This document shows, piece after piece, positions 8,501-15,474 of a stretch of 53,949 nucleotides of DNA. The notes under the pieces are model-generated. The model was not told the origin of the DNA. It ran no database searches and saw only the letters and a program-made list of their open reading frames with translations. Each line of letters opens with the position of its first letter. The stretch's first letter is position 1. The stretch is taken from the NCBI GenBank assembly GCA_003164895.1, contig PLUL01000056.1, positions 1 to 53,949 on the forward strand. The letters run 5' to 3'. The DNA comes from Bacteroidota bacterium (GTDB lineage: Bacteria > Bacteroidota > Bacteroidia > Palsa-948). The translations under genes were made by a program, and so were the position numbers.

Positions 8501-9434
8501 TTCCATTCTGGCTGCGATAATAAATATTTATGTTTTACTTTTTGCGATTTCTGTTATTGTTGCAATAATACTTTCGGAATATGTAACAAAACCGTTGCAG
8601 CTCATTCAGGAAAAACTCAGTAAAATAAAATTAGGAAAAGAAAGTGAACAGATAGAATGGAAATCTCAGGATGAAATTGGAAGTCTGGTGAATGAATACA
8701 ACCGGATGATTGGAGAATTACAAATGAGCGCAGAATTATTGGCAAAGTCAGAGCGTGAAACTGCTTGGAGAGAAATGGCAAAACAAGTGGCACACGAAAT
8801 AAAAAATCCACTTACGCCAATGAAACTGAGCATCCAACATCTTCAGCGCATTTGGAAAAATAAAGATGATGACATGGATAAAAAAATTGGACGAATCACT
8901 GAAACATTAATTGAACAAATAGAAACTCTTTCTGTTATAGCAAGTGAATTTTCAAACTTTGCAAAAATGCCTGCTAATGTAAATGAGAAGATTGACATGA
9001 AAAATGTTTTGGAAAATGCCATTTCACTTTTTAAAGATTCTACCGATACGGAAATAGAATTTTCAAGCGATGTGGAAGCGGCAATTATTTATGCAGACAA
9101 AGAACAGTTGCTGCGCGTGTTCAACAATCTTCTGAAAAATGCCATTCAGGCAATTCCTGAAAACGTACAGGGGAAAATCCAGATAACAATCGAAAAGAAA
9201 GAAAAAAATTTCCTTGTGAAAATTAAAGATAACGGAACAGGAATTAATGAAGAACAAGTAAATAAAATTTTCACTCCCAATTTTACAACTAAAACTGGAG
9301 GTATGGGACTCGGGCTTGCAATGGTGAAAAGTATTGTGGAATCATTCAACGGAAAAATATGGTTTGAAACCAAAAGCGGCATCGGCACAACTTTTTTTAT
9401 TTCCATTCCTGAACATCAGGCTGTTAATAGTTAA
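5595..9434 (+). CDS. Giant membrane-bound sensor histidine kinase (NtrY-like catalytic core)
   Basis: A 1279-residue kinase. The N-terminal half is a multi-pass membrane region (a helix near residues 12-32, then about eight between 210 and 495), followed by a long extracytoplasmic stretch, two close helices near residues 755-815, a second sensory segment and a last helix near 965-990. Then come a HAMP linker (TKPLQLIQEKLSKIKLG...), the phosphoacceptor H1067 in VAHEIKNPLTPMKLSIQHL, the N box NNLLKNAIQAI, and G boxes DNGTGI and GGMGLGLAM. The AWREMAKQVAHEIKNPLTPM motif resembles NtrY. No response regulator is adjacent, so it is an orphan kinase. The start is fixed by the promoter box directly upstream. 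The signal sensed is unknown. Confidence 0.88.
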   Translation: MQKTTNIGKFFRSRFFLLFSSMLFFASAFFISGKKNADFDSTLKKFENIFDRKEVLAKKELSNLSEKVKTWTYKKLFGEKPDYYENLFDKEGLVFLIFENDTLRFWTDNTVAVDNRLSQNNFNEKIVKLPNGWFEAVKFHAGKKELVALVLLKRDYAYQNKYLSNEFQDEFDISGEVDIQIDADKDANEKKGDASVFSGYAYDKNGGYLCTLIFPYASSGSTFIFYFAILLNILGLFLVLRFLQKESVLLSRKIGNGWGLVLFVFMVAAFRFISVEFDFPKVFYETKLFNPELFGDATSVWLGSLGDLLINAILLFYLVFYCCNKIKEEHYNSYLQERDKKNILQWIFVVAIIIFLFFCSRVINYLFSGIINNSNIPYTLNDVFSQNIYTYLSLAVIGLFFVSYFLLLDKAASVLHRLSFERKLLIAIISSAITLFIFLSRLLGTTDFNLILWPVFLFLLIVWVKNHQNAYPFSLIVILLFVISFFSAHVVIKFSEAKEHDSRKVFAQKLAAEQDPLAEHLFSKMEMSISTDTSLINILFHPHKRKYPAKPYTKTNAFTKTLVEKYFSGYWEKYDIRISVYDTICFPLVQGSAPDRDNLSYFEDVIGTHAIPTECSDFFYLTKSTGRISYLARIPLTQTVLTNKHTKDFSYRIGDLYIEFDSHLISDEIGFPELLLDRKLNFLSSVLGNEYSYAKYKSGKLVSYHGKFPYDLTAEIFFPDSTAGKEFPKTYYKDLTNYEHLLYMPSPDSLVVISKKSEGAITMATTFSYLFAFFSLLLLLLILLRVLIFEKSFRIASFRSRIQYVLVAIVLVSLLLFGGGTIYYIVQDYETKNLEAIHEKTSSALIEIEGKLGSNDEFLPSQKDYATYLLKKYSSVFFTDINLYSKDGDLLASSVSKIFDEGILSRKMCPQAYHEMALHQKLEFINTEQIGKLNYLSAYFPLKNEKGEVLAFLNLPYFARQSELEKEISSILAAIINIYVLLFAISVIVAIILSEYVTKPLQLIQEKLSKIKLGKESEQIEWKSQDEIGSLVNEYNRMIGELQMSAELLAKSERETAWREMAKQVAHEIKNPLTPMKLSIQHLQRIWKNKDDDMDKKIGRITETLIEQIETLSVIASEFSNFAKMPANVNEKIDMKNVLENAISLFKDSTDTEIEFSSDVEAAIIYADKEQLLRVFNNLLKNAIQAIPENVQGKIQITIEKKEKNFLVKIKDNGTGINEEQVNKIFTPNFTTKTGGMGLGLAMVKSIVESFNGKIWFETKSGIGTTFFISIPEHQAVNS

Positions 9435-12057: not shown

Positions 12058-12083
12058 GTGGCGGACTTTATGTCTGCCATTTT
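12058..12083 (+). repeat. 26-bp direct repeat, copy 1 (hairpin-forming)
   Basis: GTGG(C)GGACTTT(A)TGTCTGCCATTTT; the bracketed bases differ in copy 2 at 13171-13196. Within it GGCGGAC and GTCTGCC pair around TTTAT, followed by ATTTT, so it could also act as a weak terminator for the crotonase operon. The two copies bracket the acyltransferase gene. Confidence 0.65.
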
Positions 12084-12116: not shown

Positions 12117-13055
12117 TCAGTGAATTGAATTAAGAATAAACTTTCGGCTCCATCTTAAAAAATTATTTTCCACAATTTGATTGAATAGTATTGATGCAGT
12201 AATGGTGGTTATAATGACCAGTGATTTAGACAGACCGATATCAGGGGGAATAACCATGGTTATTACAGGACCGAACAGGTACATTGCATACGAAGCATCT
12301 CCCGTAATTTTAAATACGCCGGCTAATTTTTTATTTACCGGAACAGCTTTTTCATAGGCAGTGATAAAGCAGACAATGGAAAACGATACTATTCCATATA
12401 CCACATAAGAAAACGGATCTTCATAGGTTATATTCACAGCTAAAAGCAATAGTCCGCTTACTATGGCAACAAGAAGAATAATGGTTTTAGGTATCGTTTT
12501 ATAAAATCGCATGGATAAGAACGAGCTTAAGATACCCAGTAGGAATTCCCAAAGATGAGGACCCAACAAAAAATTAAGCAAAGAACCTTTTAAACTCAGC
12601 GAGGATAGATCTATAAAAGTTACAAAGGTGGAAGCTGCCAGCAGTAAAAAAAATACGGAATATTGAAATCGGGATGGAAGCAAGTAGGCAATTACACCAA
12701 TGAGAAAATAAAAATACAGTTCGTAAGAAAGGCTCCAGCTGACACCAAGCACAGCATAATGTCCGGGGATCAATAGAAAAGTTTTAATTGAGGAAATATC
12801 AACCTTGTAAGGAAGTATTACATACAACACCATCAATGCAACCCAATACAAAAAGAATATTTTGGTTGATCTGTTAACGATGAACTTAAATGCGTTGGGG
12901 CGGGCAGCAGAAAAAAGCGTGTAGTACATGACAAAGCCGCTTATTACAAAAAAAATGTCCACTCCTTTATAACCCGAATGGATGAGATCTAAATGAAAAA
13001 AAAGCACCAGTAAAGCAGCAATGAACCGGAGGAATTGTAACGTGTATAGAGTCAT
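12117..13055 (-). CDS. Acyltransferase family 3 membrane protein
   Basis: A 312-residue integral membrane O-acyltransferase (OafA/WecH type) with about ten membrane helices. The N-terminal signature is clear: LQFLRFIAALLVLFFHLD, where the His is catalytic in the family, and GYKGVDIFFVISGFVMYYT. Such enzymes move acetyl or succinyl groups onto envelope glycans. The protein ends around residue 312 without an SGNH domain. The gene lies alone between two 26-bp repeats, next to the 21-bp array, which suggests a locally inserted unit. A -7 box is at 13087. Confidence 0.9.
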   Translation of the reverse strand: MTLYTLQFLRFIAALLVLFFHLDLIHSGYKGVDIFFVISGFVMYYTLFSAARPNAFKFIVNRSTKIFFLYWVALMVLYVILPYKVDISSIKTFLLIPGHYAVLGVSWSLSYELYFYFLIGVIAYLLPSRFQYSVFFLLLAASTFVTFIDLSSLSLKGSLLNFLLGPHLWEFLLGILSSFLSMRFYKTIPKTIILLVAIVSGLLLLAVNITYEDPFSYVVYGIVSFSIVCFITAYEKAVPVNKKLAGVFKITGDASYAMYLFGPVITMVIPPDIGLSKSLVIITTITASILFNQIVENNFLRWSRKFILNSIH

Positions 13056-13170: not shown

Positions 13171-13196
13171 GTGGAGGACTTTTTGTCTGCCATTTT
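13171..13196 (+). repeat. 26-bp direct repeat, copy 2
   Basis: Same orientation as 12058-12083 and identical at 24 of 26 positions, with A and T at the two variable sites. The stem seen in copy 1 is weaker here. It lies 36 bp before the start of the 21-bp array. It may be a target duplication, a small palindromic repeat family, or the edge of a recombined segment. Confidence 0.6.
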
Positions 13197-13232: not shown

Positions 13233-13673
13233 AATAGTTGTTATCGTAATTACAATAGTTACTATTGTAATTGGAATAGTTATTATCCTAATTGGGATAT
13301 GTACTATTGTAATTGGGATATGTATTATTGTAATTAGGATAAGTACTATTGTAATTGGGAAAACACTTATCCTGATTCAGATAATTGTTATTGTAATTGA
13401 GAAAACAAATATTGTAATTCAGATAAGTACTTTCATAATTGGGAAAACACTTATCCTAATTAGGATTCCAGTTATTGTAATTACGATTCCTGTTTTCCTA
13501 ATTGGGATTCCTGTAATTGTAATCATGATTCCTGTTTTCCTGATTAGGATACCTGGAATAGTAATTACTATTCATGTTTTCATAATTAGGATTCCTGTTA
13601 TTGTAATTACAATTCCTGTTTTCTCAATTACAATACCTGTAATTGCTATTAGGATTCATATTTTCATGATTAC
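13233..13673. repeat. Tandem array: 21 degenerate units of exactly 21 bp
   Basis: Cutting the sequence every 21 bases gives 21 consecutive units with no indel. The core at unit positions 15-19 is TAATT (16 of 21 units have AATT, others GATT, AATC or TATT). Many cores sit in dyads such as ATCCTAATTAGGAT and ATTGTAATTACAAT. Units 12-21 alternate strictly between an ATTGTAATT-like type and a TTTTCCTAATT-like type, a 42-bp higher order; units 7-11 alternate GAAAAC and GATAA starts. The array fills most of the 712-bp gap between the acyltransferase and the T9SS gene at 13768. There are no spacers, so it is not CRISPR. Confidence 0.95.
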
Positions 13674-13740: not shown

Positions 13741-13748
13741 TATCTTTG
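13741..13748 (+). promoter_or_regulatory. -7 promoter box of the T9SS cargo gene
   Basis: TATCTTTG, an exact TAnnTTTG, ends 19 nt before the ATG at 13768 and lies 68 nt after the end of the 21-bp array. The array is therefore immediately upstream of this promoter, where it could influence it. No clear -33. Confidence 0.55.
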
Positions 13749-13767: not shown

Positions 13768-15474
13768 ATGAAAAAATTATTTACACTCTCACTTATTACA
13801 TTTTTTTTCTCCGTTACTTATTCTTTTGCACAACATGCAGGAAGTTTAGATAATACGTTTAATGGAAATGGAATTGATACAACATCTGTATCACATGTCG
13901 ATCAGGATTATGCTTTTGCAGTTGTTGTGCAAAGTGATGGAAAAATTGTAGTGGGTGGAAGTGCAAATAATAGCGAATATGGTCTTGTTCGTTATAAAAG
14001 TGATGGCACTTTAGACAGTACATTTAATGGAAATGGCATTGTTAGAACCTCTGTTGGTAATTACGGTGATGGCATTCATGGATTAGCGATACAACCTGAC
14101 GGAAAAATTTTAGCAGCAGGTGGTAGTTATACTGTTACTGGTAGTGATTTTACACTTGCACGTTATAACCCCGATGGGAGTTTAGACGGTTCCTTTGGTA
14201 CAAATGGAACTGTAATCTCCTCTTTCGGTAGTAGTACCGAAAGGGCTTTTCAAATTGCTATACAAACTGATGGAAAAATTTTAGCAGGAGGACAAGGTGG
14301 TCCTGGAGGTGTTATTGCGCGCTATAAAACAAATGGGGTTTTGGACAGTAGTTTTGGTACAAACGGAAAGATTATTCCAGGGAGTCATCCTGTTTCTTTT
14401 GCTTTACAAAATGATGGAAAAATTTTAGCTGCAGGAGACTCCCTTGCTCGTTATAATACTAACGGTAGTATAGATACTACCTTTGGTATAAGAGGAAAAG
14501 TCATGACAAATGCAGGTGGAATTGTTATACAAAGTGATGGAAAACTATTACAGTTTGCTACTGGGGATACTATTAAGCGTTTCTATAGTAATGGAAATTT
14601 AGACACTACTTTTAAACTTGGAACTCCAATGGGAACGGGTATTGTGTCTACAGTGATTCAAAATGATGGAAAAATAGTAGCGGCAGCTAGTACAAGTGGT
14701 GGACCTGGAAGTGATTTTTTGCTTGAACGTTGCAAAAGCAATGGTAGTTTAGATAGTACTTTTGGTACAAACGGAAAAGTTACCACATCTATTGGAATTA
14801 TTAACTGGGTTCATGCACTTGCATTGCAAAGTGATGGAAAAATTATAGCAGCAGGTACTACATGGAATGGTACCCGATATGATTTTGCTGTTGTGCGTTA
14901 TCTTGCGGCACCCTGTGTAAGTGTAAGTTTAACCTTAACACAAGATATTGTAAATCCTTTATTATGGTGGAGTCATGATACTATAATAGGAGGCACGTCT
15001 CCATTTACTTATTACTGGACATTTGGTGATGGCAACACTTCTAATGTTCCAAATCCATCGCATACATACTCGGTATCTGGGCATTATGCAATTTCTTTAA
15101 CTGTTACTGATGCAAACGGCTGTACAAGTTCTACAATGGATTCAACTTACAGAATACAATCGCCAGGTATTATGCAATATTTTAATGTAGTTTTTACTGG
15201 AACAGAGAGTTTGCAAAACAATAATGAGTTTTCTATTAATCCCAATCCCACTACTGGAATGTTTAATGTGCTAATGAATAAACCTGCCCGTTCGGCAGGC
15301 GGGTATGAAAATGTGCAAATTAAAATATTTGATATTTTAGGAGAATGTATTTATCAGCACATCGTCACATCTGCAAATCAACAAATTGATTTAAGCGAAG
15401 CGTGTAGTGGTATTTATTTTCTTCAAGTAAAAACTCCTGATGGAGTAGTGGTGAAAAAAATTATGAAAGAGTGA
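13768..15474 (+). CDS. Secreted delta-60 repeat protein with PKD domain and T9SS type A sorting domain
   Basis: This 568-residue protein begins with a signal peptide (MKKLFTLSLITFFFSVTYSFAQ). Around residues 25-370 are repeated delta-60 units built on (Q)xDGKIxAxG...RYxxxGxLDxxFGxNG, likely a beta-propeller. A PKD-like domain follows (about 400-450, YYWTFGDGNTSNVPNPSHTYSVSGHYAISLTVTDANG), then a Por-secretion C-terminal domain (NPNPTTGMFNV ... DLSEACSGIYFLQVKTPDG). It should be exported by T9SS and anchored at the cell surface. Within the sorting domain a palindromic element adds about nine residues (near PARSAGGYE). Ligand unknown. Confidence 0.88.
   Translation: MKKLFTLSLITFFFSVTYSFAQHAGSLDNTFNGNGIDTTSVSHVDQDYAFAVVVQSDGKIVVGGSANNSEYGLVRYKSDGTLDSTFNGNGIVRTSVGNYGDGIHGLAIQPDGKILAAGGSYTVTGSDFTLARYNPDGSLDGSFGTNGTVISSFGSSTERAFQIAIQTDGKILAGGQGGPGGVIARYKTNGVLDSSFGTNGKIIPGSHPVSFALQNDGKILAAGDSLARYNTNGSIDTTFGIRGKVMTNAGGIVIQSDGKLLQFATGDTIKRFYSNGNLDTTFKLGTPMGTGIVSTVIQNDGKIVAAASTSGGPGSDFLLERCKSNGSLDSTFGTNGKVTTSIGIINWVHALALQSDGKIIAAGTTWNGTRYDFAVVRYLAAPCVSVSLTLTQDIVNPLLWWSHDTIIGGTSPFTYYWTFGDGNTSNVPNPSHTYSVSGHYAISLTVTDANGCTSSTMDSTYRIQSPGIMQYFNVVFTGTESLQNNNEFSINPNPTTGMFNVLMNKPARSAGGYENVQIKIFDILGECIYQHIVTSANQQIDLSEACSGIYFLQVKTPDGVVVKKIMKE
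15283..15303 (+). repeat. GC-rich palindromic element inside a coding sequence
   Basis: CCTGCC, CGTTC, GGCAGG, then CGGG: a 6-bp perfect stem with extra complementarity, strongly GC-rich inside an AT-rich gene. It is read in frame as PARSAGG within the T9SS sorting domain, where homologues of this domain normally run without such a loop. Confidence 0.6.

Follow-up and report, generated by a model that had tools for sequence, protein, structure and literature searches.

The tandem array at positions 13233..13673 of the window (the whole stretch of 53,949 nucleotides that was analysed) is an orphan of a class of phased arrays of dyad-symmetric units. Arrays of this class have a fixed spacing of two helical turns and dyad symmetry, and they are linked to one family of proteins composed of a helix bundle and a fibronectin-III (Fn3) domain, called helix-Fn3 below. 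They apparently make up a recurring, undescribed family in Bacteroidota-type genomes. The first-pass annotation knew of no described system with this structure, and none was found in the open-access literature (coverage was partial and a prior description elsewhere is possible). The window array is tentatively read as an orphan within a two-part system made up of 20- to 21-bp phased dyad arrays and the helix-Fn3 family, a reading to which we give somewhat less than an even chance. A conserved sequence is what normally identifies a DNA element. In these arrays, spacing and symmetry are kept across unrelated sequences and across several taxonomic families, along with one uncharacterised protein family.

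Unit structure and surroundings of the window array

The window array is exactly 441 bp long and consists of 21 units of 21 bp, with no strand assigned. Compared with its own consensus, it carries 113 substitutions and no indel, as had been claimed. The strong divergence that had been noted among its units was also confirmed: pairwise identity had a mean of 0.63 and a minimum of 0.38. Each unit is a 16-bp imperfect dyad, TWTNNTAATTANNAWA, followed by a 5-bp variable spacer, and the same skeleton of TWTNNTAATTANNAWA plus five variable bases was obtained from the 48 pooled units of the window array and its two sister arrays in the same genome. Four columns of the window array are invariant and the adjacent ones are near random. 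In the pooled units, some columns hold one base in 48 of 48 units and others approach randomness, which is unlike the plain decay of a duplicated sequence. Around one axis, the pooled unit profile agrees far better with its reverse complement than column-permuted profiles do (p = 1e-4), and this axis is identical in all three arrays. The dyad-symmetry test on the window array alone gave p = 0.001. The claim that many cores are symmetric stands for the consensus but not for the variant units, which in all arrays showed no compensatory changes or within-unit covariation beyond chance.

A 42-bp higher order had also been proposed and is borne out only in part. Identity between units of the window array was indeed highest at lag 42 (0.57), but lags of 84, 21 and 63 gave 0.56, 0.54 and 0.52, and the sister arrays on contigs C26 and C59 preferred lags of 63 and 21, respectively.

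The array lies between two genes that both have their 5' end towards it: an Acyltransferase_3 family gene on the minus strand (12117..13055) and, on the plus strand, a gene encoding a secreted beta-propeller protein with delta-60 (DUF5122) repeats, a PKD domain and a type IX sorting tail (13768..15474). The octamer TATCTTTG (13741..13748, plus strand) is a candidate −7 element by its match to the Bacteroidota-type consensus TAnnTTTG. It sits 27 bp before the ATG of the beta-propeller gene, and the end of the array is 67 bp upstream of it. A putative effect of the array on this surface-protein gene is possible. No match to the helix-Fn3 family and no relic of it was found between positions 9000 and 19000 of the window, and for this reason the array was filed as an orphan. 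An orthologous-site search found the GATase gene in five congeners, with broken synteny, and there was no array just upstream of the SDR gene in genome G004.

The acyltransferase gene had zero matches in six congeners (E 0.001) and thus may have been acquired recently or lost elsewhere. It had been described as repeat-bounded. The two bounding repeats, GGCGGAC-TTTAT-GTCTGCC-ATTTT at 12060-12078 and GGAGGAC-TTTTT-GTCTGCC-ATTTTCTTTT at 13173-13191, look like intrinsic-terminator hairpins of one type and not like transposon ends. The description is better replaced by that of a gene between two terminator-like hairpins.

Spacing, symmetry and sequence across the array class

The first-pass annotation had suggested a search of the genome and its relatives for the same 21-bp profile. 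BLAST of the window array against its own 3.25-Mb genome (G000) revealed two sister arrays, with 14 units on C59 and 13 units on C26. Both strands gave matches, since the unit reads almost alike in either orientation. A sequence model of three units (63 bp) matched these three arrays only in the own genome (E < 0.01). Among 395 genomes of the class, the same model matched two others (G068 and G342), whose arrays have different words and a common plan: a 21-bp phase, AATT dyads and alternating unit types. The profile is thus found in the sister arrays, whereas the arrays of relatives keep its plan with other words. A looser pattern, RATTNNRATW repeated three times at 21-bp spacing, matched 11 of the 395 genomes. 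TRF confirmed arrays in nine of these, including the congener G002, and found none at the single matches in G104 and G256. The own genome and related ones yielded about 35 arrays built from other unit sequences.

The period is 21 bp, sometimes 20 bp, and arrays reach 26 units. When an unselected 838 kb (G002, G000 and the window) was scanned for tandem arrays of at least 100 bp, 25 of the 32 TRF rows of period 5-60 had a period of 21 or 42. This clustering of periods at 21 and 20 bp is consistent with the earlier reading of 21 bp as two helical turns. The proposal that spacing matters is well supported: 36 arrays (10.3 kb) contained 1,444 substitutions against 6 indels, the latter count being somewhat lowered since a fit to a fixed period was a criterion for choosing arrays. 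Unit symmetry was enriched, with p < 0.05 in 17 of 41 arrays (Fisher p 4e-15, a value that treats the arrays singly although those of one unit family are not independent). The GC content of the 41 arrays spans 0.20 to 0.54. Young arrays (unit identity above 0.9) and old ones coexist. A wedge-table model predicted a bend of 60 degrees per 105 bp (z 3.2) for the window array, while several other arrays came out nearly straight (11-19 degrees per 105 bp), so that the curvature proposed earlier holds for the window array and not as a general function. Given this inconsistent curvature, the wide range of GC, the few indels and the enriched symmetry, spacing and symmetry are conserved across arrays, and sequence, composition and bend are not.

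Exact pattern scans of GTDB and viral contigs returned mostly AT microsatellites and two useful matches. One, in a Chitinophagaceae MAG (JAEUVB010000019.1, locus L041, 5813-6411), has about 30 degenerate units of 20-21 bp with similar words (TTGATTAAGATTTGTCCTATG); a helix-Fn3 gene was not found within the 8 kb searched. The other, in a Bacteroidales MAG (JAQUTD010000056.1, locus L036, 5313-5476), consists of adjacent short arrays of CATCCTGCCACCTTACACACTA (about 22 bp) and TTTTTTCTTGATTTAAATAAG (21 bp), which have unrelated units and equal pitch. No similar DNA was found in plasmid and phage records.

Arrays and helix-Fn3 genes

The proteins encoded beside arrays at five loci are about 200 aa long, have no assignment in Pfam or NCBIfam and turned out to belong to a single family. 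The fold, predicted with high confidence (pLDDT 93), is a four-helix bundle plus an Fn3 domain, and both profile searches and fold searches recovered Fn3 for the C-terminal half. For the bundle on its own, fold searches returned nothing significant (best Z 7.5, talin VBS2). The score of the DGR protein Avd (Z 5.2) was below significance and is a lead only. The proteins are basic, with a median pI of 9.4 that is hardly above that of control ORFs (8.9). Searched with an alignment of the five proteins, most array-bearing genomes had 5-20 copies; G219 had a single one, and three of the congeners lacked the family. A search of plasmid and phage records with one query gave no match. In close paralogues (L130/L141, L132/L142/L151 and L149/L159), the Fn3 halves are 66-89% identical and the helical halves 43-75%, as if the helical half diversified faster.

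Arrays of period 20-21 or a multiple were sought by TRF around 48 family copies. An array was present beside 36 of them, on the 5' side for 32 and on the 3' side only for four; about six of the 36 are short, weak TRF rows, and about 30 of 48 are solid. The 5'-side arrays mostly lie 34-300 bp from the family match. Units differ at nearly every family-gene locus. Even paralogues with 88-92% identical Fn3 domains had units no more alike than shuffled ones. In the 838-kb scan, six of 12 merged arrays were at most 600 bp from a family gene, and four of ten when the two seed arrays were removed (P 5e-5 under random placement). Three more arrays adjoin proteins that are similar by eye, to which the HMM gives no score.

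The family was present in all nine array-bearing genomes searched, which were selected because they hold arrays, and in two of the 118 genomes of a phylum sample (G000 and G113), the E-value limits of the phylum-sample and nine-genome searches being unequal (1e-10 and 0.001). The single copy in G113 has no array beside it. Two congeners without the family (G001 and G006) had no array in 342 kb; about five would be expected from the density in G000, G002 and G004 (about one per 67 kb).

In 239 kb of G004, four arrays, one of them a poor 23-bp row, lie away from any family gene, which indicates that orphans are common. TRF detected no array beside six of the eight family copies of G000 or beside any of the three copies examined in G003. 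The C26 sister array has a helix-Fn3 gene (L010, 2624-3274) 127 bp away and stands on its 3' side, not on the usual 5' side. Unit words are common to this gene-adjacent array and to the two orphans of the genome, the window and C59 arrays. Likewise, in G280 an orphan array (L108, 1561-1985) and a helix-Fn3-adjacent one (L129, 1501-2046) have common words; both are near-perfect, with 21-bp units from a single unit family (GAGATTCACGAATTTCAAYCA). The only recurrent neighbours of arrays were helix-Fn3 genes and genes for type IX secreted proteins, and no transposase recurred. The Bacteroidota −7 promoter was not enriched on either side of the arrays of family genes.

Possible action of the arrays and other explanations

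We consider it possible, though the chance falls a little short of even, that these are helically phased protein-binding arrays, in which binding, cooperativity and function are inferred. Each unit would be one site for a symmetric protein. The two-turn spacing would put every site on one face of the helix, and identical proteins placed side by side would form a phased nucleoprotein array. The sites would most likely be occupied by the helix-Fn3 protein itself or by a protein recruited by it. An array beside a family gene would then be the cis site of its product, and orphan arrays would be extra sites in trans, that of the window lying between the acyltransferase and surface-protein genes. 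The unit words common to orphan and gene-adjacent arrays in G000 and G280 would fit target sites in trans, or copies. The fuller proposal, held with a shade more doubt, is a new genetic system of Bacteroidota-type genomes: a rapidly diversifying helix-Fn3 family would build or occupy arrays of set spacing and dyad symmetry whose sequence is free and varies by locus, with orphans acting in trans close to other genes, among them the surface-protein gene of the window. Several results count against a two-part system. Half of the arrays, including that of the window, have no adjacent family gene, and six family copies in G000 and three in G003 lack an array. No significant structural match was obtained for the bundle, the pI is hardly above that of controls and the dyads show no compensatory changes. 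Because paralogues with Fn3 domains 88-92% identical have unrelated units, the system would need either very fast co-diversification or a protein that recognises DNA shape or just a few bases. If helix-Fn3 proteins do bind or make the arrays, the two would represent a novel type of protein-DNA pair in which the sites are specific to each locus. Its logic would resemble that of centromere systems, except that the pair is chromosomal and present in many copies. Arrays and proteins, both uncharacterised, each give a direct test of the other.

By analogy, the closest functional parallels of the arrays would be partition centromeres, iterons and twin operators, all of them repeated protein-binding arrays, from which they differ in that the defining neighbours are absent. 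Type II plasmid partition centromeres (ParR-parC) include the 20-bp tandem repeats of pSK41. As in that system, the sites are in tandem, symmetric and about two turns apart, the gene of a small protein is adjacent and the site sequence varies between systems. Unlike parC, the arrays have no ParM- or ParA-like neighbour, are on chromosome-type contigs and are present in many copies per genome. The neighbours of the window array (acyltransferase, surface protein, ECH and SDR) include no ParM/ParA NTPase and no DNA-binding ParR. ParR is a ribbon-helix-helix protein, whereas the helix-Fn3 protein is predicted to be a helix bundle plus Fn3. Plasmid iterons are AT-rich direct repeats of about 20-22 bp with two-turn spacing, features that the arrays share; however, array units are dyads, no Rep gene was found beside arrays and there are several loci per genome. 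ArgR-type paired operators have 18-bp boxes about 21 bp apart. They resemble the arrays in being AT-rich palindromes whose centres are two helical turns apart, but they have two boxes and a conserved operator sequence, against 10-26 units without a conserved sequence here. REP and other extragenic palindromes with RAYT are also short and present at several loci per genome. One account lists GTAG/CGTC-tagged repeats among REP/RAYT elements (PMC3733652). The arrays are set apart from REP-type elements because their spacing is fixed and their sequence, kept in REPs, varies by locus. No RAYT-type transposase gene is adjacent to them.

The arrays could also be a functionless by-product of mutation, in which slippage, a recombinase or helix-Fn3 activity amplifies stretches of 20-21 bp that then decay. 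Units are locus-specific and unrelated even between near paralogues, so arrays seem to arise anew on site, and young and old ones coexist. However, old arrays have many substitutions and hardly any indel, where neutral decay predicts otherwise; nor would such decay leave columns of 48 identical bases in 48 units beside random ones. The enriched symmetry is unexpected as well, unless hairpins drive the amplification. We judge this origin unlikely. A structural role, in which phasing curves the DNA or favours its wrapping by a general nucleoid protein and there is no specific binder, would suit a fixed two-turn period with free sequence and the bend predicted for the window array. It seems more unlikely still, since the predicted bend is inconsistent between arrays and since this role would leave both the dyad symmetry and the association with a single protein family unexplained.

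We consider it improbable that the arrays are transcribed (beside family genes, as a 5' leader) and act as a series of hairpins. RNA folding was strong on the two strands of the window array (z −12.7 and −9.8) and, on the plus strand, for the sister arrays on C59 (z −5.6) and on C26, the latter taken with its 3' flank (z −6.2), and no canonical promoter was seen between array and family gene. Yet shuffled unit orders fold nearly as well and there is no covariation, which attributes the folding to unit symmetry. Hairpins do not need an indel-free 21-bp pitch, and the candidate −7 element stands downstream of the window array, before the beta-propeller gene. Rfam gave no match above the gathering score in the window except two tRNAs. 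The idea of a protein-coding heptad repeat or its relic draws on 21 bp being seven codons and on the open frame present in every 21-bp array. Such frames are expected from unit composition (column-shuffled window arrays are equally open), 34 arrays of 21 bp show no general third-position excess, three of the four 20-bp arrays have no open frame and the frame of the window array has no ATG at its start. This very improbable idea was rejected on the grounds of frames, third-position bias and start codon. Least credible are ends of IS21-type elements with multiple transposase-binding repeats. IS21 ends carry repeats about 20 bp apart, a spacing like that of the arrays, and 2.2 copies of a 20-bp repeat follow istB in one such element of the own genome. 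A comparable array was absent from both IS21 elements of that genome, no istAB or recurrent transposase gene lies beside arrays and arrays reach 26 units. This origin was rejected, the own-genome istB genes being on C5 and C19, away from the arrays.

Three minor observations were made in the own genome. The 20-bp repeats on C5 (TGCAGAGCCATGCAACGTCA, locus L060, 5149-5210), located directly behind istB, are probably IS21 end repeats. On C59 (L009, 2469-2581), short repeats with 7-bp and 21-bp periods occur within a coding region for a type IX sorting tail. On C26 (L010, 2517-2552), a terminator-like hairpin, ACAAACAGGAATCCCGATTGGAATTCCTGTTTTT, adjoins the array and has words in common with its units (GGAATTCCTGTTTT and CCCGATTGG).
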